From Eutreptiella sp. 'Long Island Sound 2002' (lineage: Eukaryota; Euglenozoa; Euglenophyceae; Eutreptiales; Eutreptiaceae): a DNA stretch of 64,000 nucleotides. A program made the translations under genes and the position numbers. Positions 6,504 to 64,000 of this stretch are shown here, piece after piece (positions within the stretch are counted from its first letter, which is position 1; each line of letters begins with the position of its first letter). Under the pieces are notes generated by a model. It worked only from the letters and a program-made list of their open reading frames with translations. It did no database searches and was not told the DNA's origin. Where the stretch lies: NCBI GenBank assembly GCA_964036045.1, contig OZ038381.1:122081843-122145842 (forward strand), given 5' to 3'.

Positions 6504-6605
6504 AGAAGCGGAGGACACCGGGAAGACGAAGAAGGACACTGGACGAAGGCAGGGAGGAAGGAGCAAAGGGGAAGAAAAAGGCGCGGCAGACATGGGGAAC
6601 TGCGC

Positions 6606-7430
6606 GTGGATGGGGAGAGCAGGTGGCAACGCATGAAGTTGTACACCCATAATGACCCCGCGGCAATATATCGTGCAAACAAAGCAGCGTGGCAGCAGAT
6701 GAAGCTGCATGAGGCGGACCCCGACGTAGTGGCATACCAGGAGATAAGGTTGAAGGGGAAGGACAACGGTGTGTGCGCGCTGATGTACGAGAAGGATGGG
6801 AGAGAGTACCAGCCGGAGTTGGCACAGGGGGTGCCGCTGTTGGTGCGCAGAGGGCTGAGCGTCGTACAGGACAAGAAGGTGGGAACGAGGGGACGAAGGG
6901 CGGTGTATGATGTGGCGACAGAGCATGGACAGGTAGTCATCATCAACTACCATGTCCCACATGGGAGGAGGGTCAAGGAGTATGTGGCGCAGCTGAGGAT
7001 GGAGTACATCAGGGCGCTGGAGAGGGGGCCAGTCTTCGTGGTTGGAGACTTCAACTACGATCCCCGGAGAAGAGGCGCGGAGACAGAGGTGGACCGCGAA
7101 GTGCGGATGTTTGTGGAGGAAATGAGGCTGCAGGATGCGTCGTACAGTGGGGCGCCAGGCCCCTCATACTACCCGGCACCGGACGGCAGCACACCGTCGC
7201 GGATGGACCCGGTGTACGCAGACCCGAGCTGGGTCAAGGGGGTGACAGCGGGATACATGGTGGGGCCGGAAGAAATGGAGGACAGGAAGGGGCATTGCCC
7301 CATGATGGTGACAGTGGACGTGAAGGTTGGTGAGACCGGGGACGAAGAGGAGGATGAGCAGGGGTCGGAAGAAGAAGGCGTCAGCTTGCCGCCAATGGTA
7401 AAGTGGCCGGAGGAGGGGGACGAGAGGTAG
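6606..7430 (+). pseudogene. LINE-1 ORF2 N-terminus: APE-type endonuclease
   Basis: Exonuclease-endonuclease-phosphatase fold motifs appear in order. They are an N-terminal Asn (KLYTHND), the metal-binding Glu (VVAYQEIRLK), the VVGDFNYDP motif near 7039-7065, SRMDPVY near 7198-7218, and a final GHCPMMVTV in place of the usual S-D-H. These are hallmarks of the AP-like nuclease that nicks the target for target-primed reverse transcription. The frame ends in TAG at 7428 and continues in the same frame into the RT segment, so this is one ORF2 with a premature stop. The last motif has C-P rather than D-H order, which could weaken activity. Confidence 0.88.
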
Positions 7431-7460
7431 CAACAGTGGGGGCAGCGGGTACACGCCGAA

Positions 7461-9551
7461 ATGAGGCAGGGGAGCCACCTGCATCAGGCCATGAGGAGCG
7501 CAGCGAGGGTATGCGGGTTTACCAAGCAAGGGGGGGAATTTCAGGCACAGCCCAAGCTGCAAAGGCTGGTGGCCACCCTGAGGAAACGGCAGCACGAGGA
7601 GGTCGAGGCAAGGGTACAGGAAGAGGGAGCAGAGTGGCAAACAGAGGTGACACAGGCAAAGAAGAGGGTGCAAACAGCGAGGAGGGCTGTGGAGGAGGAA
7701 CACGAGAGGATATACCAGAAAGTGGTGGCGGAGCATGAGCGGTACATGGAAACAGCGGTGCCGTACAAGTCGCTACGGTACATCAGAGAGCTCGCGGAAG
7801 CTGCAAAACCACAGAAAATCCGGGCGGTGAGACTGCAGGATGCCAGGGTCACGGGCAACAAGAGGGAAGTGCTGGAGGAGGTGGCGCAGAGTTTCAGGAG
7901 GCAGCACAACCAGGGGCAGCAGGAGCTCAGGGGGATCACACGGAGAATGGTAAGGGCGTTACCGACAGTGTTCACGGCAAAAGCAGAGCAAGGATATACA
8001 CCGCAGCAGGGTGACGCTGGGGTAAATTAAGGAGGCGGTGCGGGCTCTCAAGGGGAAAAAGAGCCCGGGAGTGGACCAGCTGGTGGCAGAGGCATACCAG
8101 CACCTAGAGGTGCCGGAGCTGGAGCGGGGAGGGACGCAGAGGTGTTGCGCACAGGCGAGCCCCCAGTGGAATGGGGGGGCAAGGTGCGGCCCCTGTACAA
8201 GAAGGGGGATCACCTCAGGCCGGGGAACTGGAGACCAATATGCTGTGCCGTCACAGAGGCCAAGCTGGTCTGGATGGTGATCTTCGGGAGGATACAGCGG
8301 CGGCTGTATGCTGCAGGGGTCATACCGGAGAAAATGTGGGGGTCCGTGCCACGTAGGTTCACACAGAAAGCAAGCTTCCTGTACGATATGTACCTCGATG
8401 ATGAGGACCTAGAGGCGTTCATGGTGTCTGTCGACGTGAAGGGGGCGTTCCCCAACACGCCACATAGGCTCAGTGAAGAGGTGTGGCGGCAGCTAGGGCT
8501 CCCATATGGTGACTTCCTGGAGAAGTACCTGCGCTCAAGGAGGTACACGGTCGCCACGGGGAAGGGGTGTAACGAGTGGGTAACCCCAGGTAGCGGGGTG
8601 CCACAAGGCGGGGAGGGGGGCCCATTCCTGTACTTGCTGGCCATGCTCCCACTGATGAGTTGGATAGCGCGGGAATATCCGCAACTGGCGAGGGCACCAC
8701 ACACGTCGCCAGCGCAGGCGTATGTGGATGATGCGGTACCCATGGCGCGGGATGAAAAGGCCCAACCGGTGGTGCAGGACCTGATGCAGAGGTACGGGCG
8801 GGATAACCACCTTGTCTGGAGCACGGAGAAGTCGGCGGTTCTGAGGAGGGGTGGCGAGGATGGTATGGCACTGGATGTAGGAGACAGGGTGGCATGGTTT
8901 GAGAGGGCAGAGGAAGCGGTGGTGCCGGGACATGTGCAGGCCATGGAGGCGAGGGGAGTCAGGCTGCCCGACAAATTAGTCAGGGGGTTCAGGGCGATGC
9001 TGGTGGTCCTACGGCATCACCCCCCTTCAGTGCAGACGACCCTGTACTATCTGCGGGCCGTGCTCAATGCGGTGATAGGATACCAGGGGATGCACCTCCT
9101 GCACTGGAGGGAGCAGCTGGAGGAGGTGGAGGGAGAAGTGCGGAGGCTCATCAGAGGGTATGAGGGGATATTCACGGAGGTACCGCGGTGTGTGTTGCGG
9201 TCGCCGACGGCCTACTATGGAGAAGGGATACTCACGGCGGGGGAGGCGTACAGGGCACACACGGCGAGGTCGCTGAGCAGGATGTGCCACAATCAGGAAG
9301 AGGTGGTGAGACGGGTGTGCTATCACGCTGTCGCAGAGGTGCAGAAGGAGGAGAACATGTGCCCGCGCTATGTGTGGCACCGGGGAAGGCGTTTGGCGGC
9401 GGGTAGGAAGGAACGCATGTGGCGCGCCCTACAGGCGGTGTTGCCGGGGGAAGAGCACAGGCTGGCAACCAACAGGACGTGCGGCAGGCGAGGACTGATC
9501 CTGGTTCTGGACACGGACTTCGGGGGGGCGGCGGATGGGCCTGTACGGTGA
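7461..9551 (+). pseudogene. LINE-1 ORF2: linker and reverse transcriptase domain
   Basis: A helical linker (EEEHERIYQKVVAEHERY and around) precedes the RT. RT motifs are NWRPI near 8229, SVDVKGAFPNTP near 8430 (first catalytic Asp), GSGVPQGGEGGPFLYLL near 8592, and AQAYVDDAVPMA near 8710, the catalytic YVDD loop. The reading frame slips around 8025-8115 (the KEAVRALKGKKSPGVDQL segment lies in frame 1, the rest in frame 3) and stops with TGA at 9549. The next segment is in the same frame. In life the enzyme copies element RNA onto the nicked target. The YVDD box is intact, but the copy cannot be translated whole. Confidence 0.9.
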
Positions 9552-26711: not shown

Positions 26712-28860
26712 TCACATGGTCATGTGGTGCTTCCGTACACGCCATTCTGCCCCGTGGTGGATGACGGTGATCTGCGTGGGTTCGGCTTCATTGAGGGCCA
26801 GTAGTAGGGTTAGCGGTGGGACTGGGCCCGCCACCGAGGGGACGGGTTTGTGTTTCGAGCCGGTGGGTGCGTAGGGCGGTGTCGCTGGGATGGGACGGGG
26901 GTGCTGCTTTTCGAAGTCTTGGTAGGCTGCCTGCATGTCTTTGCTTTTTGGCAGAGTATGTCCTGCTGCTCCTGCCGTCTGCGTGAGGTACTGGTGGAAG
27001 AGGCGGTATTGAGGGCATTTGGGAAGCTGTATGAAGGGGTTGTGGTGTGTCCCGCTGTGGTGAAGGACCCGCATTAGGAGGAGGGTGACGTATACTACGG
27101 TGATGGAAGCCCCGACGAGGTCTATGGTGTTGATGGTGCCTTTGGGGTGATGGTGGAGGTCCCCGCGGAGGACCGCCAGGGGTCCTTCCTCCGGGCATGT
27201 GTGGTTGGTGAGTATGGCGTGGTGCGGGGAAGGGAGGAGAAGCTGGAGGTGGTTCCATAGGCGCGTGTTCATGTTGGTGGGCATGCCCGTTTGGTGGAGT
27301 ATCCAGCGCAGGCATGTGATGCGGGCCCGTTGTGCGGCTTGGAGGCGGATTGTGGCGACTTCGCGGACTTCCGGCGAGTGGTTGTGGGTCATGCCGTGAA
27401 GGAGGAGGGCGGTGTGTCTGGTGTAGGCCGCTTTCACGTCGTCCCCTATGATGTCTTCATAGTGGGACCATGCCGCCCGGATGGCGCGATTGGGTATGGA
27501 GGTGGGCCAGCCCCCGTGTGCTGCCCATGTCCTGGTGACGGCGAGTGTGGCCGGCTGGAGTGCGGTGGTGGGGTGTGTCAGGTGGAGTGCCTGGAACCCT
27601 ATGGAGGCGTTCAAGACCCCGGTGAGGTAGTACGCCAGGCTCTGGTGGGATAAGGAGAGGGCCTTTGTGGTCGGGAACACATATCTGGGGAGATGGGCAG
27701 GTGTGACTGCAACTTGGGAGGGAGGGAGGTATCCTCAAGGTTGGCGGCCTGGATCACCCCCAAGTGGGTGGTCGTTTCCACGACTTGCATTCGGGGGTCC
27801 TTGTGGCCCTAGGGTCAAGGGTGTAGCAGACCCCTTGATCATGGCCACTGACGTTGTGGGGTGGACGATGAGGTTGTTGCGGGAGGGGTAGTGGATTGTC
27901 ACGTCCAGTAGGTCGTTGGCTTGCTGGGTGACCGTTGGTCCGGGGTCCGGGCTGTGCGGTTCGTGTGGGGTGTCTGCGACCGTGGGGTTGGTGTCGTCCG
28001 CAAAGCCCATCAGGGGGGAGAGGAGGGGGTAGGGTGCGTAGGCCGGGTAATCCTGTCCGATTGTGAGGGCCAGGGGGAGTGTCACGAGGAGGTACAGGAA
28101 GGCGCCTTCCGCTCCTCCTTGGAGGACCCCGCTGCCTGGCTCCAGGAAGGGGGTGAGGCCTGCTCCGATGCGGACTGTGTATTTGCGGGTGCGGATGTAG
28201 CCGGAGGCGAAGTTGTAGAAGGGGCGGCCAATATGTTTCCACGCCGCCTCCAGAAGGAGCCAGGGGGTGTTCGGGAAGGCTCCCTTGACGTCGAGGGAGG
28301 CGATGATGAGGTCTACCGGGTCCATGTCGGCGATGGTGTCCTGGAGGAAGATGACCTGGTGTGGGGACCGGCCCGGGATGGCCCCCCAGAGGCTGGCAGG
28401 TATGTGGGGGTCCAGGTGGGGGCGGATGCGGCGCAGGAGGATGGTCCTAACGATTTTGACCTCCGTGACTGCAAAGACTATGGGGCGCCAGTTGTCCGCG
28501 TTGGCCCAGTCACCCTTTTTGTAGATGTGGCGGACAACGTTTGCCCAGTCTGGTGGTAGGGGGGTTTGGCCCGTGACGATGTCCCAGAGGCGGTGGGCGA
28601 GGATGCGGGGTAGGTGGGCGGGGAGGTGGTAGTATGCCTCCGCTGGGAGGCCGTCCTAGCCTGGGGTTCTGTAATGCCGGAGACTGTGGATGGCCCTCTG
28701 GACTTCGTGGATTGTGAAGGGGCGCTTTTCCAGTTGCCTCCTCTGGGCGTGGTTCAAGACCTGAGGGGGGCGGTTGACTTTGGCCTGGGTGTCCGTGTCC
28801 AATGTGTCTTGGGTGGGCGTGTGTTGATGGAGGAAGCTGTCTTGGGTAGTATGGAGCACG
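26712..28860 (-). pseudogene. LINE-2 ORF2: reverse transcriptase
   Basis: RT motifs on the minus strand: HIYKKGDWANADNWRPIVF near 28500, IIASLDVKGAFPNTP near 28290 (first Asp), GSGVLQGGAEGAFLYLL near 28110, and SPLMGFADDTNPTVAD near 28000 with F-A-D-D as the catalytic box where LINE-1 has YVDD. A thumb region follows at 27680-26712 (LTGVLNASIGFQALHL, matching LRAVLNAVIGYQGMHL in LINE-1). A TAG at 28656 cuts the frame just before DGLPAEAYYHL, and further shifts occur near 27735. Confidence 0.88.
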
Positions 28861-40691: not shown

Positions 40692-40721
40692 CTACCCTAC
40701 GTGCTCATTTGGATCAGGTAC
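40692..40721. repeat. Left TIR (30 bp)
   Basis: Exact reverse complement of 42368-42397. Begins CTACCCTACGTG. Two GTTCAACC motifs follow at about 40750-40765. Confidence 0.95.
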
Positions 40722-41436
40722 CCTTGAATTACCCAAGTGAAACCGTGGTTCAACCGAGTTCAACCGCGCACTTTCATTACGGCCTCCCCACGGTTAAACC
40801 CCTATCATGGTACAGCAACAAATTGCTAAGTAGCAACCTGAAAAGCGCTATTTCTCAGCCCTGCAAGTGATGCCACACCCCCTAAAAAGAATGTTTTTGA
40901 AACCCTTCTTACCTCATTGGTGCAAAGCACTGGAGACCTATTTCTCTTGGATCATATTTCACGGCGGTGGTGGTGGTCTAGGTGCCAGTGGCGGCGGCTG
41001 TATTGGTGAAACCGCACTGCTTCACCATCAATTTTTCGTTAGGCGTGGTGACATACACCTCTGCGCCTTGTTTGGATTCCCTTTAGGACTTTGGACCCTT
41101 TTTAGTGAACAACAATTACATGCAAGCCTACACTTGATTGTCAGAAGCTTGTTTCCTCATGGATTGCACTAAAATGTAACCAGCTTTCGAGGTGGTTCAA
41201 CCGCTGGACAGGCGCGCGGTTGCACGGGCTTCACTGGTTCAACCGCTGTTGCACGAAGCGCTACACAAAAAACACATCTTCACCTTGGGAAGCCAAACGT
41301 GACCAGTTAAGTCTGCATCGCCACAGGCAGACGTCCCCATGCAATGCCTGTGTACGGTACGAGCACAATGCGCCGTTCAGACCACGCCAGAGGCATGTGC
41401 CAGAGGCATGTGTGTTTGATCACCTATATATTGTAT

Positions 41437-41626
41437 CTAATCATCCACATCCCAACGAACCCCAACTCTTCCATCCTTTATGGTCGTTTTTGGTACTTGT
41501 CTCTCACTTAACGTGGACCAAGCTTTATCCATCGTTGCATACGACGGAAAGCAATGTGTCCATGGGACGGTGCTTGCACGGGTTTTCTTCTCTTTGGCAT
41601 CGGCCCACGAAATAAGCTTCTTGTAC
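41437..41626 (-). pseudogene. Transposase-like exon 2 fragment of the small TIR element
   Basis: After the acceptor ccctag (minus), the exon reads YKKLISWADAKEKKTRASTV, then WTHCFPSY, and ends VPKTTIKDGRVGVRWDV before a TAG at 41437. It aligns with YKNLISWANRRTKAAQEKLD...HPFPSF...LETTIHNGKVGVRWDL at 63.0-63.2 kb. Everything after RWD, including all proposed catalytic residues, is missing. Confidence 0.8.
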
Positions 41627-41925
41627 CTAGGGACGGTTGAACCGAGAAATTGGGATAAAGTGCGGGGTTGAACCTGCGGTTGAATGGGTTGCCGTCATGG
41701 CACCAAAAGGCGTCCAATGGTACAAACCACAAAGTATTCACATTTGCGACGCGGGCAACACGTTGCAACTCATATGTTCATGCTTTGGGCAACATTAAGC
41801 GATTATTTTGCTGTGCAAACGTTGTCATGAAGCACAAACACAATTGTTCATTTGTGATAAGGGTTCAACCGCACCGTTGAACCATGTTGAACCACTTGTA
41901 GGGATGTGTGCATTATGCCACATGC

Positions 41926-42170
41926 CTTCGCTTCGGCATCCCAAGGTCCAAAATGAGGCGCACAGCGTCGGATCCTGTGAAAGCTTTTTTTGTAGCCCTT
42001 TTTGTCTGTTTGGAAGCCCTCTGTGTGTTACCAATTCGGTCAGCAAGTTGTTTCCGTAGGCGTTTTGTCGTGCCGTTCGTGCAAAAAAAGGTGAACAAGT
42101 CGTCCACCAGCTGTTGCTCCCCCCACCCGCTGTAGTGGTCGTTCACCACTTGCAGCCAGTGGTGGGACAT
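41926..42170 (-). pseudogene. Transposase-like exon 1 of the small TIR element
   Basis: Begins MSHHWLQVVNDHYSG and ends DAVRLILDLGMPKR. It aligns with exon 1 at 63569-63816: DHY-S/T-G, then L-x2-D-L, a basic stretch, then F-x3-DAVRLILDL-x-MPK-x-R. The exon ends AAGCGAAG followed by GC, so the intron 41627-41925 appears to be GC-AG; joining AG to G gives the same Arg codon as in the larger element. It is probably an N-terminal DNA-binding or dimerisation module, but that is a guess. Confidence 0.8.
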
Positions 42171-42367
42171 TTTTTAAAAAAGGTTTGTCACGCGTCAGTT
42201 TCAGGTGGTTATGCAAACAATTTGTTCAGAACAGCTCGCGCCGCTGGCGCAGCTGCCGCCGCCAGCACTGGCGGTGGTTCAACCGCGGTTCAACCGCGGT
42301 TCAGCGGTTCAACTGCGCCCCTTCTGAGTTCAACCGGGTTGAACCAGGTAAAACCACCGTGTGAAGT

Positions 42368-42397
42368 ACCTGATCCAAATGAGCACGTAGGGTAGGC
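42368..42397. repeat. Right TIR (30 bp)
   Basis: Exact reverse complement of 40692-40721. Several GGTTCAACCGCGG-type motifs lie just inside at 42268-42350. Confidence 0.95.
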
Positions 42398-46176: not shown

Positions 46177-47163
46177 ATGACAGAAGGAAATGAGACACTG
46201 GATTTTCACGAGTTCGTGCTGAAATTGCCGGATTCGGCGTGGAACCTGAGTTCTGAGTCGTTGGAACATGCAGCACAGTTGCCAAAGGAAGGCGCAATGA
46301 GTGGTCTCAGTCCTTGGCAGGCAGCGTCACTGTATTCCAAACTTACAGGAAAGAAAACACTGGCCACTGTCAAAGACACGATGGCCTTGGTTCGTGATGC
46401 CTTACTCACCTTAAGGGGCGACGACATTGGCAGAACAGGAACGTCGTCGCATCGCGAAGACGTCTTCTTGGCATGCGAAACTTTGAGCGGTCCCAAGGAC
46501 CACGCTGGCCCCGCGTCGGACAAGGAGTCCACGTTCGTGTGGCGCGATGAGGTTCTGTCGCTTCCTTCACGCTTGTCTGCACTCCTGGAAGAGCGAAAGG
46601 TTTTGCAAGACGAGTTTCGCAGAAAAAAGATGTTGAAGCACCTTCCAGTGTTCGACGAGTTCCATAGGGCAGCTGTTAATAACGCGCCAACGCACAAACA
46701 TCCAGCGGACGCAGAGAAGCGTCGTTGGGAACAACAGGTAAAAGACGCCATGCGAGTCCTGGGAGTAGTCTTAGCACGCGGAGAGGACACGACGGTGGCT
46801 CCGGAAGCACCTGTTTCATTGGTACTATGTGAACATTTGTTTGCAATGTTGGGTGCGTTGGACTACAGCATCCAAAGCTCCCGGCGAGTGGCAGTAGATA
46901 AACGGTTTGAACAACCTGCGATTGCACCAGAGTTACTCTCGAAGGATGACATGTCACTACTTCAGTCGCGCAACAAATTACAAAAAGACCTGAGAGGCAC
47001 GCGTTTCTCCCCTTACTCGCATCGTAGTTCTTTCCGTTCGTTTTCAACACGAGGTTGTTTTGATCCACGGAGATCTGGCAAAGGAGGCAAAGGCAAAGGT
47101 AAGGGTTTCACCCAAAGATTTGTGCCACGTAACGACAAGTTAGATGAACGACCACAGCAGTAG
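46177..47163 (+). CDS. DIRS element ORF1 (gag-like)
   Basis: A 328-residue intact frame starting MTEGNETLDFHEFVLKLPDS. It is mainly helical and charged, with a basic, Gly-rich end (RSGKGGKGKGKGFTQRF) suited to nucleic-acid binding. No zinc knuckle is seen, as is common in this group. The last 20 nt overlap the start of the RT frame (47144). It presumably forms the nucleoprotein particle for element RNA; assignment rests on position before the RT and on composition. Confidence 0.75.
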   Translation: MTEGNETLDFHEFVLKLPDSAWNLSSESLEHAAQLPKEGAMSGLSPWQAASLYSKLTGKKTLATVKDTMALVRDALLTLRGDDIGRTGTSSHREDVFLACETLSGPKDHAGPASDKESTFVWRDEVLSLPSRLSALLEERKVLQDEFRRKKMLKHLPVFDEFHRAAVNNAPTHKHPADAEKRRWEQQVKDAMRVLGVVLARGEDTTVAPEAPVSLVLCEHLFAMLGALDYSIQSSRRVAVDKRFEQPAIAPELLSKDDMSLLQSRNKLQKDLRGTRFSPYSHRSSFRSFSTRGCFDPRRSGKGGKGKGKGFTQRFVPRNDKLDERPQQ

Positions 47164-48216
47164 CTTGACTGTAGAGGATTTATTGGCGCCAGCCGTGTGC
47201 GTGCCACTGCCGATCCATCCCCACATGCCACTCTATTTGCGCTGTCGTGCACAATTGCATGAATGGGAAGCGTTGAAGGACACATACGCGGCGTCAGTGA
47301 TTCGCAATGGGCTGCAGCTTGATTGGGTTGACGGTTTTGATCCGGATCGGCCAGCCGACGACTTCCGTCCTCGTTCTTCCCACGCAGAGGTAACCGACCC
47401 TGAATTGGTAAAACACGTGTTGGATGCAGTGCAACAGGGTTGCATGGAACGCGTCGAGCGAAAAGACATTAAGTGTTGTGCAAGTATGTTCGCAGTGGAC
47501 AAAGCGTCAGACGAGGCACATCCTGAGGGAGGCCGTCGACCTATCACCAATTTGAAGAACGTGAACCAGTTTGTACAGACCACCTATTTTCGTTTGGTCA
47601 CTCTGTGGGGCATTTTACCGTTTTTGAGACCCGGTCAGTATGCTTGCAAAATTGACTTGAAAAGTGCTTATTTTCACATGGGTATCCATCCGCGGGATCG
47701 ACCTTTTTTGGGGGTCTACGTCGACGGTGAATTTTACAGGTGGTGCGTTTTGCCGTTTGGATTAAACGTTGCACCACGGGAATGGCAACGCCTCATGCAA
47801 CCAATTTTAAATGCCGTGCGCGAACGCGGAGCACTCGTTTGGGTCTACTTGGACGATTGGCTCATCATTGGCAATACTTACCGTGAATGTCTGGAACACA
47901 CACGTTTTTTGGTACAACTTTGCATCGGTTGGGTATATTGGTCAATGTCCCAAAATCATGTTTGGAGCCGTCTCAAGAAATTATAATGCTTGGTTTTATG
48001 CTAAACTTCAGGGAAGGATTCGTCGCGGTACCTCCAAAGCGCCTACAAGCAATTTTTCGGGACGTGAACAGACTGGCACACAGTCACACACCATCAGTGA
48101 GGCGATGCGCCTCCGTTCTTGGAAGAATCCGTTCCTTGTTGTTCGCCATGCCCCATATCCGACTCCTCAGCGACGCCCTGGCGGTGCACGTGGCGGTGGC
48201 AGTCCAGGCTGGCTGA
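47144..48216 (+). pseudogene. DIRS element reverse transcriptase (frameshifted)
   Basis: Frame 2 carries RT motifs: RPITNLKNVNQFV, YACKIDLKSAYFHMGIHP (first Asp), RWCVLPFGLNVAPREWQRLM and GALVWVYLDDWLIIGN (YLDD box, near 47849). Near 47925 the frame slips to frame 1, where HRLGILVNVPKSCLEPSQEI continues the palm/thumb up to ALAVHVAVAVQAG. A TGA at about 48214 separates this from the RNase H text in the same frame. The motif set is that of DIRS-type RT rather than LINE or Ty3 types. Confidence 0.9.
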
Positions 48217-56849: not shown

Positions 56850-57674
56850 ATGATTTAGAACACCGGACAAGGAGGTGATCAGCCTGTCATAGTACAGCAT
56901 GCATGCACGAAGGGGTCAGTGAGGGACAAGATGTCATCTTCAGCTTGGATGATGGCAGCAGTCAAGTCCTTGGCAGAAATGTGGACGCCTTTTTGACTGG
57001 GATAGGCTCGCCACCCTAGTGACCCCTTTTGCACACCATGGTGCCATGTCCTATGTTCAACCGGTGTTCAACTGACTTCACCTGGGCCCTTGAACCACCC
57101 CTGAACAGCGGTTGAACACCCCCACCGCGCGTAGTGCAATTTTACCAAAAATTAAACTTTTGACGTATCACCATGCCATTCCAAACCATCCATGACGATG
57201 TACCATGCTTTTAACAACATACTAATGCCCAATGCACTATTCCATGCCATACCCCTCACATTGCCACTCCCTTTCTATCATGTCCAAGAGTAGCGTCAAC
57301 GCCGCCTTGGTGTTCAACCATGCGGTTGAACACCCCACTTGACACATTCCCCTAAGCTTTGACCTTCATTGTGGTCCTTTGGCTTCCATTCTATCGTGGA
57401 TGGTGTTCAGAGGTTTTTGCAGTGTGCACCTGCCTTATCCAAATCAATTATAACCACAAAACCATGGATTTTCTGCTACTTTCATATTGCCGCCCATACG
57501 CGTTCGGCCATGTTCAACTGCGTGTTCAACCGCGCGGTTGAACACGGTTGAACACGGTTGAACTCGGTTGAACACACACTGGAGCGCGTTAGGAGAAATG
57601 CCGCACGTAATCGCAATCACACAACAATGGCACCAACAATTCACGTCAAATTGGATGAACAATCCCAGTGCCTG

Positions 57675-59171
57675 TCACCATGGGAACCCCAGGTCCAGGA
57701 GTTCAGTGCGCATCGGAGCGGGAAGGCGGTGCCACGCGATAGATGTATACGCCACAATGGCATACCTTTCACCCTCCCATCGCTCCGGCCCATGCGTACG
57801 CCACGCATTGAAAATCACCCCCTTTCGTGCATCCACAACAACCCCTTGCACAATTTGACGCCCACATTGCATCCATGCTTGACGCTGCGCCCCCCCCTCC
57901 CCCCCACCACCCATCCACGCCGTAGTAAAGAAACCACCACCACGGAAATCACCCACCGCCACCACCCCACTCAACGCGGAGTCATCCCTTGGATGTTTGT
58001 GTACATCCATGGGTGCACATCCGTTGCCCCACACGATGGAAATTGCGGTGTAACTGAGGGACGGTAAACAAACCGTGAGGAAATTATTTACAAGGCGCAC
58101 AACATGTGCATCATCATGTGTCCTCTTAGACATGCCCACGTGTGTAAACGTCGGAAACTTCCTTGTTGCTCCCCATAGGATCCGGCGGTACTCTCCTCCA
58201 TGTTTCTTCTTGTGGAGCCATCCCTTCAAGCCTTGTAAGGCTTCATGGACCTTGTCGGCTAGTCACTTTGAGTCCACGGCCCATAGCGCTTGCGTCTCCG
58301 GTCCGACCTCCTCCTTCCCATCATCGGCACACTCCTTCTCCCTTGTGCTCGCCATTGCCCTTTCGCTCCCACCTTCGTGCATGCCGTCTTGAGGTCCACC
58401 TTCCTCCTTTGCATCATCTCCAACATGAGGTCGTTCATTCTCCTTGGCATCGTGCTCCACCTTGGGGTTGTTGAGGGCATAGGACATGCCCTCCTTGTTG
58501 GCATCGTCCACGGACGTGCCCTCCTTGTTCGAATCCTCCACGGACATGCCCTCCTTGTTGGAATCGTCCACGTCATTTGAAGTGCTCTCCTTCATGGGAT
58601 CCTCGGAGTCCTCCTTGGTGCCATTGTCCGACGCATTGGTGGTACTTCCCGCGATTGCTTCCGTGCTTGCGATTGCTTCCGTGCTTGCCCCATCTTGACC
58701 TCCATCTTTTGTATCTCCGCTCTCGGTTGCCGCGTCTTGGCCTCCATGTTTTGCATCTCCGCTCTCGGTTTCCTTGTCGTGGCCTCCATGTCTTGCATCT
58801 CCGCTCTCGGTTTCCTTGGTCGCTTTCTCCATGTTCTCCTCCCACTTCGCCAACATGGCCTTTGCCTCATCCTCGCTCGTGAACGCTGTGTGGCGGAGGC
58901 GCACAATGACTGGCCACGTGACGTTGGCCTCACTCTGCTCTCCGGGCCATTGGGGGGGGAGTTTCACCATCTCCTCCCCCTTCCGTGGCTTGGGGTCGTC
59001 CTTCGTTGGCTTTGCCACGGCGCCCACTGCGATGCGGTGGCGCTTGTCTGGACCCTCGGTCAGCACCCACCGTACTGCGGATCCCGCTGGCAACCCGAAC
59101 TTCTCACGTGCCTCTTGGCGCTTCTCGTCGAGGCGCCGTTTTTCCTCCAATCGTTGCACTTTCACCATCTC
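57675..59171 (-). pseudogene. Exon C: charged linker plus 2OG-Fe(II) dioxygenase-like domain
   Basis: The acceptor tttgcatag precedes GAG ATG GTG at 59171. The exon encodes a basic helix (VKVQRLEEKRRLDEKRQEAR), a globular stretch (GSAVRWVLTEGPDKRHRIAV), four or more ETESGDAKHGG-type repeats, an acidic repeat region (DSNKEGMSVE), an in-frame TGA at 58263-58265, and then about 196 residues of a dioxygenase-like domain. Fold landmarks: LPSLSYTAISIVWGN, PMDVHKH, LSGVVAVGDFRGGGFF, VFNAWRTH-type last His and GERYAIVAYTS with the 2OG-binding Arg. This layout recalls TET/JBP-like and related 2OG oxygenases. The usual first His of H-x-D is Pro here (58011-58013). Activity is doubtful because of the TGA and this change. 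Confidence 0.65.
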
Positions 59172-59375
59172 CTATGCAAAAGCGTTGCAGAGAGTTCAAC
59201 CGAGTTCAACCGCGTTCAACCGTGTTCAACCGACCGGTTGAAGTGTTCAACCGTGTTCAACCGTATTTCACGACGTACCGCCACACACTATAGCACCGGC
59301 ATGCTTCGACGTTGTGAAGGCGCATTGCAACCAAATGTAGAGGCATATGCATACGCAGGAACATGGGGACATCAC
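59172..59375 (-). other. Intron B/C with GTTGAAC motifs
   Basis: A predicted GT-AG intron of 204 bp (minus: gtgatgtcc ... gcatag), phase 0 on both sides. It carries at least six GGTTGAAC or GTTCAACC motifs between 59190 and 59265, near the 3' splice site. Confidence 0.6.
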
Positions 59376-60413
59376 CTCTTCCGCTGGTGCGCTTGCTTGC
59401 ACCGTGGTACTTGTGCTTGCACTTGTCTCCATTGCGCCACTTGCCTCCATCGCGCCACTTGCTTCTGTCGCGGCACTTGCCTCCGTCGCGCCACTTGCCT
59501 CCGTCACGTTCGGTGTTGACCGTTGTCCTTCCTTTGCTCCCACATTTGCGTTGTTGGCGTCTTTGGGCCGCAGAGATGCCTTCTCCTTCTTGTCCTTGTC
59601 CTTTTTGTCCTTCTTTGGTTTTGCTTCGATCTTCTTCTTCTTGTTTGCCTTGGGAGCCTCCTTTTTCTTGGGAGGTGTCCACCCCTCATCATTGTCGGAC
59701 AATTGGCTTGCACTTGACCCTTTTGAGTCGGACGACGAGTCCGCTGACGTTGCCACCCGTTGCCGCTTTTTGGAATGCACTCCCCGCCCGTCCTTCTTCT
59801 TCTTCTTGTCGGTTTTGTCTTGCACCCTTTGTTTGAGCGCAGTTTGCGCTTGGAGGAGCAAAACCTTTGGGCTTGCACTTCCTCCCTTTGCTTGTGGAAT
59901 TGCCTTTGGTGGAGGCTTCAAGAGTCCACGAATGGGGACGTGGACTTTTGGCTCTTCTCGGAAGGGTGATGTTGAGCTCTCTGCCTCGTCGACCACGGGA
60001 TTTTCACTCTTCACGTCTCCATGATCCGGCGCAAACCATGCATTAGAATTCTCCCACCACGTGCCATCGTCGGTGTTCACGTCATCCCTCAATTCCTCCT
60101 TCACGCCAAACATTGGTTGGGGGAATTGCTTCGCCTTGCCCGACTGACTCCGATGCTTTGGGGTGGACTCCATGGGTGTGCCAATCGCATGTGTGTCAAT
60201 CGCATGTGGGGACCCGCCATGTGCAAGCTCTTGGAGTGCGCGATGGAGTCCTCGGGTCCATTTCTTCACGAGGGCGTCGCGATCGGAAACCCGTGCACCT
60301 GGCCCATGCCACCATTCATCAATGGGTAATGGCGGCCATGCTCCATGGAGCATGACCGCCGGTCCGCGTTTGTCAATGACGAACATGTGGGGTGGGACGT
60401 CTTGGGCCGATAA
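59376..60413 (-). CDS. Exon B: acidic/Lys-rich disordered segment
   Basis: A predicted exon of 346 codons, phase 0 at both ends (acceptor ctcttag, donor gaagag-gtgat). It starts LSAQDVPPHMFVIDKRGPAV and has an ordered N-terminal patch (WPPLPIDEWWHGPGARVSDR, LVKKWTRGLHRALQELAH). A long disordered part follows with poly-Lys/Asp blocks (KTDKKKKKDGRGVHSKKRQR; KKKKIEAKPKKDKKDKDKKE) and ATEASGAMEAS repeats. It is probably a nuclear, nucleic-acid-associated linker between the exon A domain and the dioxygenase-like domain. No family is recognised. Confidence 0.55.
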
Positions 60414-60715
60414 CTAAGAGAGATGAGCGGTTGAATGGGGTTGAGGTGCGAAACCGACCGGTTGAACACCGGTTGAACACATGTGGCCACCACCTCATAT
60501 GCACGGCACCCTCAGCGCACTAACACAGGGTATTCAATTATTGAACCATGTATGCATCCCAGACATGCAGGTCTCAATGTCCTAGCCACCAATTGCCCAA
60601 AACATCCACTCCGAACGTGTCACACACGGACTGTATCCATACTCTCTCCGTTCGCTTTGCTTCAACTGCCCGGTTGAACACGGTTGAACACCGGTTGAAC
60701 ACTTGTTGCACACAC
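60414..60715 (-). other. Intron A/B with GTTGAAC motifs at both ends
   Basis: A predicted GT-AG intron of 302 bp (gtgtgtgcaac ... ctctcttag). GTTCAACC/GGTTGAAC motifs cluster within about 60 bp of each splice site (60425-60480 and 60660-60705). Confidence 0.6.
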
Positions 60716-61627
60716 CTGCTCCACGCCTCGCATCATTGACGAAGTGCTTGTGGCCGCATTGGGTAGTGTGGTTGGTGGTGCAACCGCTGCAGGTGCCTCC
60801 TCCGTGCTGGACTTCTTGCTGCGCCCGCCACTTGATATGGTTCCCCCGACCTCGACCATGGATGGCGGTGACGCGTTGTAGTTGGTGGCGTCGGAGGCGT
60901 CATACCAATTGTGCGGCACGGACTCCACGTTTTTAAAAAAGAATTGCGGCCCATGGCCCTTGCCATGGCCGCCACTTCGGCCAGCACACCCAGGGCCGGT
61001 CCATTGGGGTGCCACTGCAGTCCCCAGCCCGTAGGATTCCCATACCCTAAAGAGGGCATTGAGGGCGGTCTCCGACAACGTCATGGCAATTCCGGGGCGT
61101 GTGCTCAAACCAATCCTCAAAAGTTTCCACTCGGCCCAATTCTGGGCTGTGAGTGCTTTCGTTGTCCACGGGTGGCTCCGGTGGCCATGGAGGTCATACT
61201 GGGCGTTTTTTTTCATCCACACCCCGACACTCCTCCGGTACATGAACCGGGGTGTGATGTCCCGGAGCCATCTCCATTGAGGGGAGTCATCCGCCAACGA
61301 CGATGAGTCGTGGCACACCCCAAATTGGGTCAACTCCTCCTTCGCTGGGAACAAAGCATCCAACGCTGGGACCACTTGTGGCAAAGGCAAGGATGCTCCT
61401 CCTGTTGTACCCCCGCCTATCGGCCCCGTTGATCCCGTAGGCCCACTTTGGGTCGGCGCAATTACATTTGGGTGTGGCAATTGCGGCGCGGCCAATTGCG
61501 GTGGTCCCAATTGCGGCACTTGGGCACCTTGTGGTGCTTGCGGTCCTTGTACCCCTTGTGCGGCTTGTAAGAACTGCATGAGTGCGAGCCCAATCGCTTG
61601 TTGCGCCGACGCTTGTTGTCCTTCCAT
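60716..61627 (-). CDS. Exon A: Gln/Pro-rich leader and unknown globular domain
   Basis: ATG at 61627 gives MEGQQASAQQAIGLALMQFL, then a Gln/Pro/Gly-rich stretch. A globular region follows (about residues 95-215) with FGVCHDSSSLADDSPQWRWL, ITPRFMYRRSVGVWMKKNAQ, HPWTTKALTAQNWAEWKLLR and SETALNALFRVWESYGLGTA. The exon ends SMMRGVEQ at a CAG-gtgtgt donor and is exactly 304 codons. The globular part is rich in Trp and basic residues and could bind DNA, but I do not recognise it. The first ATG may follow an acceptor (tttttag just upstream), so exon A may instead continue the transposase-like gene. Confidence 0.55.
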
Positions 61628-61801
61628 GACCCCCCCCTAAAAACAAAGAAAAATAGACACTCGCGCGGTTGAACATGCTTGCACACCTCAACCGACCGGT
61701 TGAACAACTTGAAGTGCCGCTGAACACGGTTGCACACGGAACACGGAGCATAAAGTATGAAGCACCAACGACAAACCACATAGCCCACACCTAGAGTTTG
61801 A

Positions 61802-63194
61802 TCATTCTCCACCCGCACTCGTACGTTCCCACCGTGGTAGCTCTTTTGCCAGAAAGATCCTTTCGTGCGCTTGTTTTAGCATGCGCTTATCACGAGCTAC
61901 ACGCCCACCGGGGCCACCGCCACGCCCACTTGAGCATAAGAAGTGGTCTTTTAATATATAGTTTAGTGATTCTACTATATCCCCACTAAACATTCCCGCC
62001 CCCCATGGGTAAATATTTTGCAGAACCTCCGTAGCCTCTCTTCTAAGCCACAAAAGGTAAGGTGACCGCTTATGCGGACAAATTAATTTCTGAAATCGAC
62101 GTGCCACGCGTTTACACTTTGAAAGGGCCGCGGCCTCGTAGCGCCATGATTGCATGGCCGTCAAAAGGTTTGCCATTTCTTGTACAATAGATATATACTT
62201 TGGAGGCAACTTCATGGTCTTACCTATTATTGTCCAGTTAGCGAGGAGACGCCATGTCTCCTCACCGTCCGGGCTTGCCTTACCTTTGAGACTAATATTA
62301 GTCTTAGATTCATTCAACACGGTTTGCACGCGTGCACGGACAAGAGGCGGCAAACGTTTGCAAAACGCGCGAATGAAGTGTGTAAGATAGTCGCCAAGTC
62401 GGATCACCAAGTGCAAAATGCACATCACAATGAACCGTGTGCGGTCATCCACGCGGAGCATTGGTTTTGAAGTGCACCCTTTGGCCGTAGTGCAATCCAA
62501 ACCTTTATCGTACAAAGCGCGGAATTTTCCATCAAGGTGCGTTGTGCGCCGCACCTTAGTGTTCATCCATCGTTCACGCCTACTACACCATGTGGAAAAA
62601 GAGTAGATGCTTCCAATGGCAAAGTAAGACGACAATCCTAAAAGTAGACGCAACCATGGAGAGTCTCCACCCAACATGATTCGTGCACGATAATAAACAT
62701 TATTCATTTGGATGTATCCACTATCAATGATAGTTTGGATGTGTTGCAACGTGGCACAAAATAAGACACGCATTGCTTCGTCGTCATGTTCAGATGTCAA
62801 TGCGACATCCAATGTCCAATTATATTGAAGAGTGCGGGCCTTTTCCATGTGATTGGCAAAGCCAATCGCAATTTGCACCCATGGGCGTGAGCCACATGGG
62901 AACCCGTCGCCTCTAATTATGATGACGAATAATTGCTCGCCATCGATCATTGGAAAGTCCATGGACTCCATGAGCTCCTTTTGTGTTGCGACATAATTAA
63001 AGAAATGCGGTAAGTCCCATCGTACACCAACTTTGCCATTGTGAATAGTGGTTTCCAATTTTTGCGCCTTACCCAATCGTTGCCATTCACGGTGCATACG
63101 CTTGAAAGATGGAAATGGGTGCACCCAATGAACATCCAACTTTTCTTGGGCAGCTTTTGTTCGCCGGTTGGCCCAAGATATTAGATTCTTGTAC
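61802..63194 (-). CDS. Transposase-like protein, exon 2 (candidate DDE core)
   Basis: After acceptor aaatttag at 63195, an unbroken frame of 463 codons follows to TGA at 61802. In spliced numbering, landmarks are YKNLISWANR, KVGVRWDLPHFF, FVIIIRGDGFPCG (Asp179, codon 62906-62908), ARIMLGGDSPWLRLLLGL (Asp260, codon 62663-62665), IYSFSTWCSRRERWMN, and SGDIVESLNYILKDHF (Glu491). Two Asp on predicted strands, a G-D-x-x-W/F-L-x2-L-L-G-L helix followed by a Cys, and a late Glu beginning a helix fit an RNase H-fold D-D-E transposase. I could not place it in KDZ, hAT, Mutator or Transib. It is homologous to the TIR element at 40.7 kb. Confidence 0.6.
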
Positions 63195-63568
63195 CTAAAT
63201 TTGAGGCATGTTAATTCGAACAAAGTGACGCGCACAACGTGAACGTTGGTGCACAACGTGAGCGTTGGTTGAAATCGTTCAACTTGTTCAACCGGGCAGT
63301 TGAACATGACTTTAACAAATGTTCAATTTGTTGTTTTCATGAAAAAACACTTGATGGTAGCATGTAAATGGGGCCAAAATTGCATGTGGAAGAAGACATA
63401 TACATGATAGTTCGATGAAACCTAGGTAGGCACTCTATGTTGCACAAACATGAGTCGCATTTGTTTCATATGTGTTCAACCGCACACTTGAACGCATCTC
63501 GCATACGGTTGAACGCTCCTTGCATACATGCAACGCACCATGGTATGCATGTAGGACATGTAGAGCAC
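63195..63568 (-). other. Intron 1 of the transposase-like gene
   Basis: GT-AG, 374 bp (gtgctctac ... aaatttag). Its position is identical to the intron in the small TIR element: the Arg codon is split AG|G in both. It holds GTTCAACC/GGTTGAAC motifs near each end (63280-63305 and 63474-63510). Confidence 0.75.
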
Positions 63569-63816
63569 CTATTTTTCGGCATTTCCAAGTCAAGGATCAA
63601 CCGGACGGCATCCTTGGGTGTAAACACCCTTTCCATGACCTTCCGGTCATTGCGTCGACTACGCCGCCCACTACCCATTCTAGTCTTGAGGCGTTCCCAT
63701 AGTGTACGACCACCCTTGGATGCGGTGAACAAGTTGACCAAATCACTCATCAATTCATCCGATTGTAATCCAGTGTAGTGATCTGCAATACATTGCTTCA
63801 AGTTTGACGTTGGCAT
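63569..63816 (-). CDS. Transposase-like protein, exon 1
   Basis: Starts MPTSNLKQCIADHYTG at 63816 and ends DAVRLILDLEMPKN plus two bases of an Arg codon. The middle is basic (WERLKTRMGSGRRSRRNDRK). I chose this ATG because homology to the small element's exon 1 (MSHHWLQVVNDHYSG) begins about here; an in-frame upstream codon exists at 63864 but has no counterpart. It is likely an N-terminal DNA-binding or assembly segment. Confidence 0.65.
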
Positions 63817-64000
63817 TTTTGATTGTAAAATGAGAGGGATCCTTGCATACAAGTAAGAAACCACAATGGGGAATCTCTTGGTGCTCTAATTTGTTCTTAT
63901 TGTTACGTTATTTTTGGTGACACTACCATATTGCACAAAGGTGAAATTAAATATTCTTCAATTCAATGCGTCATGTATATTAATTAACCACTGTTGAACG

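Follow-up and report, generated by a model that had tools for sequence, protein, structure and literature searches.

Two genes at one end of a 64,000-nucleotide stretch of the Eutreptiella sp. 'Long Island Sound 2002' genome (contig OZ038381.1, positions 122,081,843 to 122,145,842; hereafter the window), one transposase-like and one with an oxygenase-like end, raise the question of whether they move as a unit and what the second protein would contribute. Comparison of the window copy with four other copies (L032–L035) in the 2.28-Gb genome set the ends of a 7149-bp element, a terminal inverted repeat (TIR) DNA transposon with a D-D-E-type transposase (gene 1) and a co-mobile second gene (gene 2) that ends in an oxygenase-like domain. 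The window copy and copy L034 are 99.8% identical over the full 7149 bp, gap-free. The tips read CCCTAG..CTAGGG, and the four copies with both ends read carry 2-bp target site duplications (TSDs; TG, AT, AA and CA). The window copy shows no TSD because its end on the transposase side has lost the outermost 5 bp; the partner TIR lies outside the window, at the equivalent of 64144–64162. The 24-bp TIR and 2-bp TSDs bear out the initial annotation, which had assigned the first gene to a TIR element. A TIR 19-mer occurs 239 times on one strand of the genome and 235 times on the other, against 0 for the reversed control; the ends are therefore commoner than chance. From about 100 places chosen out of these 474 we formed 37 TIR pairs by hand, leaving aside four pairs 18–25 kb apart and unpaired ends; 20 span 6.4–7.4 kb (near-full elements) and 17 span 0.8–3.7 kb (deletion derivatives). 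The element thus has the inverted repeats, target duplication and many copies of a DNA (TIR) transposon.

A six-frame genome search with transposase exon 2 gave at least 93 matches, or at least 92 without a 41-residue fragment that we excluded from the counts below. Since these copies are 95–100% identical, the family has moved recently; 82 matches span all 463 residues and, by manual count, 71 of the 92 are stop-free, a family young enough for direct testing at individual copies. Searching with the diverged domain sequence P0040 yielded 2145 candidates, 150 of which were scored; 149 belong to the window family, and the P0040 locus itself was left out of the co-mobility count. A domain match lies downstream on the same strand, at 2.7–5.8 kb and most commonly 5054 bp, for 74 of the 92 transposase matches. 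The other 18 have no domain match, and at least one of these (L035) does carry the domain, in frameshifted form. The test set beforehand had been the absence of the dioxygenase from all copies, and the opposite was found. Three domain matches at G000:C10:25543356-25549053 are spaced at exactly 2630 bp and may represent part of the element repeated in tandem.

The pairing extends to a second family. The 1.7-kb element elsewhere in the window, earlier described as a copy of the same element with a 30-bp TIR at 40692–42397, belongs to a separate family with its own 27-bp TIR (40695–40721 and 42366–42392). It is a deletion derivative in which the start of a transposase runs directly into the end of a homologous domain; this end, HMPLAWSERRIVLVPYTGIAWGRLPVAMQT*LVTFGFPR, aligned to the end of the window domain with a score of 103, whereas none of 500 shuffles exceeded 58. 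As this domain end is retained in the second family too, the transposase–domain pairing is older than both families. A public protein set contains 35 transposase relatives, each on one contig. Some of them read by eye as fusions left behind by internal deletions: in P0003 and P0005 (23 member sequences) the window transposase runs into parts of gene 2, and fusions of the same type occur in P0025 and P0027, which come from a family only 54–58% identical. Both L056, the P0040 locus, and L057 are fragmentary, and no transposase was visible by eye in either. At about 49–2037 of L056 (reverse complement), some 5 kb from the lone P0040 domain, frames resemble, again by eye, a Gypsy-type RNase H, integrase and chromodomain.

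Gene 1 is, as first described, a two-exon minus-strand gene of 546 codons and D-D-E type. Its splice sites were assigned by eye from the DNA alone; the start and junction sequences are exact in L032–L034, with one junction mismatch in L035. Within the family, exon 2 changes comprise 31 nonsynonymous, 24 synonymous and 3 stop changes against 66, 30 and 4% expected, a slight silent excess. Sequence searches found no relative of a known family, in line with the initial annotation: Pfam searches with 27 members returned weak unrelated families only (best NblA, 0.0011, in one member), the transposase profile matched one unrelated chain among PDB sequences (E-value 1), an hhalign comparison with one RAG1 core scored 18.0, with at least 6 of 40 shuffles scoring above it, and no relative was confirmed in the viral contigs searched. 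The structure model nevertheless points to a known group. Its first 31 rows against known structures were all RAG1 or BbRAGL, the catalytic Glu falling in register or close to it, and by fold only the predicted core appears RAG1/Transib-like. No EnSpm or other CMC transposase appeared in the PDB rows for this model, which excludes nothing. The C(2)C/H(3-4)H zinc motifs of the CMC/CMCT type are absent from the transposase, and the only Cys or His residues kept between D177 and E408 in at least 85% of rows of our alignment (26 of the 35 public-set homologues plus the window sequence) were C240, C258, H261, C360 and C372.

Gene 2 starts with an ATG at 61627, 174 bp downstream of gene 1, and was read by eye as three exons with in-phase GT-AG introns. 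Exon A is open in L033 and L034; the start of the gene is missing from L032, and in L035 both exon A and the domain are disrupted. No gene 2 piece matched Pfam. The terminal motifs reported earlier (SYTAISIVWGN, VAVGDFRGGGFF and GERYAIVAYTS) are present, but an in-frame TGA that had gone unmentioned splits them from the rest of the gene; exon C including this TGA and the domain spans 57675–59171. The domain probably adopts a 2-oxoglutarate (2OG) oxygenase fold, as judged from the motif and from the structural ranking of a very poor model, in which the ten best rows were all 2OG oxygenases. The distal His and the Arg nine residues on are kept in the window (H157/R166), in P0040 (H133/R142) and in the second family. 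The 2OG assignment of the initial annotation holds to this extent; the HxD/E half of the iron site is not conserved. The domain had no Pfam match at an E-value of 10 and its profile none among PDB chains at the same E-value, TET/JBP similarity being found in neither. A search with the read-through exon C gave 606 candidates, none at an E-value of 1 or below, and no relative was confirmed in viral contigs searched with the domain.

The stop junction reads AAG TGA CTA GCC, and the same frame stays open for 195 codons beyond it. The UGA-CUA-G context is found in five of five copies (the window copy and L032–L035, near-identical to each other). Two passages of PMC12233894 term UGA CUA G the high-readthrough motif, and for UGA CUA alone a passage of PMC11166343 gives about 1.5–2.9% readthrough. 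Beyond the stop, comparison of the domain between families revealed an excess of third-codon-position changes, that is, selection at the codon level. Separate initiation at the first Met of the domain is unlikely because conservation (EYRRILWGATRKFPTFTHVG compared with QYRRIFWGATKMLLRFTEVG) starts 19 codons upstream of it and this Met is Val in P0040. Readthrough of the UGA is the simplest reading of these sequences.

The non-coding DNA of the element is marked by an octamer. TTCAACCG or its complement CGGTTGAA occurs 30 times in the full element and never in the coding sequence, which makes up 71% of it, while 200 scrambled octamers averaged 0.2 copies (maximum 3); this test counts sites as independent although many are in tandem. 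Copies lie close to each end, within every one of the three introns, in the intergenic spacer and in the 3' part; the second family, which has another TIR, contains 10, and 4 occur elsewhere in the window. This is the pattern expected for binding sites of an element-encoded protein, for which gene 2 is a candidate. In exon 2 of the best-scoring 30 of the 92 copies (L001–L030), the 156 CpG positions showed 9 C>T changes and the 494 others showed 5 (p 0.0014), although these counts are low and copies may have inherited the same change from a common ancestor. The excess is a hint that the element is methylated at CpG sites, which would make it a plausible target of the oxygenase.

We infer readthrough, octamer binding, DNA as the substrate and an anti-silencing role, which would fit together as follows. 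The RAG1/Transib-like transposase would act on the 24-bp CCCTAG... ends and move the element by cut-and-paste with 2-bp TSDs. Gene 2 would mostly yield a large Lys-rich protein of partly low complexity, which ends at a leaky UGA and binds the TTCAACCG arrays in the non-coding DNA of the element. A minority of ribosomes would pass UGA-CUA-G and add the C-terminal 2OG-oxygenase-like domain, and this longer form would bring the domain to element DNA, where it may oxidize methylated bases and lift silencing. We put the probability of this whole mechanism, a RAG1-like transposon with a leaky UGA and an octamer-guided oxygenase that counters silencing, at roughly 0.4. Several results weigh against it. 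The domain model is very poor, with structural scores that are low set against the typical Z of the tool; Foldseek returned nothing under 0.001 for this model; the HxD/E half of the iron triad is not conserved in the window family; and the P0040 locus, a fragment and the only diverged locus that was read, has no TGACTAG in 9 kb, but only a TAG 30 codons before YRRI.

The loss of half the iron motif and the lack of TGACTAG at the P0040 locus would also be expected if, in the same element, the domain were a dead or decaying oxygenase remnant, the UGA a true stop and the downstream frame untranslated in this family. Within the family no constraint on the domain was seen from nonsynonymous and synonymous changes (23 distinct copies: of 25, one below 90% identity was dropped, and L037, part of L057, had been counted twice), and the domain is frameshifted in one of the five copies (L035). 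A dead remnant does not account well for the third-codon excess between families, for a domain frame that is stop-free in 149 of the 150 scored matches (a figure that selection of intact copies favours) or for the UGA-CUA-G context, and we consider it possible rather than probable. Alternatively, splicing could remove the TGA, for instance as part of an 87-nt GT-AG intron with its 3' end immediately upstream of YRRI, and the domain would then be present constitutively in the gene 2 protein. An in-frame GT...AG pair is present by eye (GTGGACTC...GGAGAG), but such an intron would have a purine-rich 3' end, would be far shorter than the others (204–374 bp) and would lack the octamer that all three of them contain; an octamer-bearing intron ending just before YRRI was sought at the P0040 locus and not found. 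We regard splicing as improbable. Chance adjacency of two unrelated elements by nested insertion, with the oxygenase-like gene outside the transposon, has nothing beyond adjacency at a single locus in its favour and was rejected by the copy comparison as having a negligible chance, given that one TIR pair with 2-bp TSDs encloses both genes in four of four copies, that 74 of 92 transposase matches have this arrangement and that this domain end recurs in the second family.

Table 1. Features of the transposon and of the second-family element in window coordinates.
Feature	Position	Strand	Basis
Full DNA transposon (162 bp more past the window end; 57014 to the equivalent of 64162)	57014..64000	-	locus L031, alignment to copies L032–L035
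24-bp TIR CCCTAGTGACCCCTTTTGCACACC, gene 2 side	57014..57037	.	end reading of copies
Transposase exon 1	63569..63816	-	splice sites read by eye
Transposase intron 1, 374 bp, GT-AG, contains TTCAACCG copies	63195..63568	-	read by eye, octamer count
Transposase exon 2, D177, E408 and candidate D96 (exon 2 numbering), RAG1-like model	61802..63194	-	alignment, structure model
Gene 2 exon A, 304 residues, no Pfam match	60716..61627	-	splice reading by eye, copy comparison
Gene 2 intron 1, 302 bp, with TTCAACCG copies	60414..60715	-	read by eye, octamer count
Gene 2 exon B, 346 residues, Lys-rich low-complexity, no Pfam match	59376..60413	-	splice reading by eye, copy comparison
Gene 2 intron 2, 204 bp, seven TTCAACCG copies	59172..59375	-	read by eye, octamer count
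Gene 2 exon C, stretch upstream of the stop, 302 residues	58266..59171	-	open reading frame, reading by eye
In-frame TGA followed by CTAG (UGA CUA G context)	58263..58265	-	identical in L032–L035
2OG-oxygenase-like domain, 195 residues, in frame with exon C	57675..58262	-	homology, frame statistics, structure model
Second-family deletion derivative, TIR CCCTACGTGCTCATTTGGATCAGGTAC, TSD TA, transposase start joined to end of homologous 2OG-like domain	40695..42392	-	
Second-family 2OG-like domain remnant (HMPLAWSERRIVLVPYTGIAWGRLPVAMQT*LVTFGFPR)	41280..41399	-	alignment score against shuffles

Elsewhere, the window contains LINE-type remains with endonuclease and reverse transcriptase domains at 6504–9548 (plus strand) and 27738–28655 (minus strand), and another reverse transcriptase domain at 47144–47983 (plus strand) next to long open frames that reach 50081.

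Among known systems, RAG1, ProtoRAG (BbRAGL) and Transib share with the window transposase the predicted core fold and the approximate register of the catalytic Glu. RAG1 and Transib are characterized by a 5-bp TSD and a CAC tip, whereas the window element has a 2-bp TSD and no CAC tip, and no sequence similarity was found; no RAG2-like partner was recognized, because the gene 2 pieces match no Pfam family. The 2–5-bp TSD of the CMCT clade fits the window element, while its CA..TG termini (in most cases) do not. CACTA/EnSpm elements likewise combine one transposase gene with one second gene, and the short repeats near the window element's ends recall their TNPA sites, but the tips differ, there is no Pfam match and the repeats also fill introns. 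It is rather unlikely that all parts of a wider claim hold, namely that the element represents a RAG1-fold lineage whose ends, TSD and zinc motifs separate it from Transib, RAGL and CMCT, with an oxygenase captured independently of the fungal TET+ elements and rationed by UGA-CUA-G readthrough, the bulk product sitting on octamers and the minor product modifying bases. Outside fungi, orchid Ty3/Gypsy elements reportedly carry an m6A demethylase domain (PMC9289625). They are retrotransposons rather than DNA transposons; likened by description only, they too are mobile elements with an acquired oxygenase-type domain, which we take to be of AlkB type. Our searches, confined to an open-access library, listed neither an oxygenase-bearing DNA transposon from outside the fungi nor any DNA transposon with readthrough.

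Fungal TET+ transposons include ESTA, EnSpm and Plavaka elements (Kojima 2025, PMC12730594). The fungal KDZ (Kyakuja-Dileera-Zisupton) transposons resemble the window element in carrying an oxygenase gene, but have TSDs of 7–8 bp (PMC12730594), and RAG1 is the group indicated by the window transposase model. We rejected classical TET/JBP or KDZ membership, as there is no profile match and the TSD differs. Close in kind are the ESTA elements of rust fungi, EnSpm-like transposons with TA TSDs, RAG1-like transposases and TET/JBP oxygenases (PMC12730594). Although the oxygenase-carrying transposon proposed by the initial annotation is a real co-mobile pairing, the combination of a RAG1-like transposase, 2-bp TSDs and an oxygenase had thus already been published. 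The window element shares with ESTA a transposase that appears RAG1-like in structure-type comparison, a 2-bp TSD and a co-mobile oxygenase-like gene. It differs in its mixed TSDs (TG, AT, AA, CA), TA being seen only in the one 1.7-kb second-family element, in having CCCTA tips instead of CA..TG and in lacking the C(2)C/H(3-4)H motifs; its oxygenase, which cannot be recognized as TET/JBP from sequence, is encoded in the last part of gene 2, after a UGA. If our reading is true, transposon-borne base-modifying enzymes would not be limited to the recognized fungal TET/JBP types, RAG1-like transposases would include a further lineage that differs in its ends and makes 2-bp duplications, and a DNA transposon could set the dose of an accessory enzyme through stop-codon readthrough. 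New here are the in-frame UGA-CUA-G before the oxygenase-like domain and the placement of 30 of 30 TTCAACCG copies in non-coding DNA.

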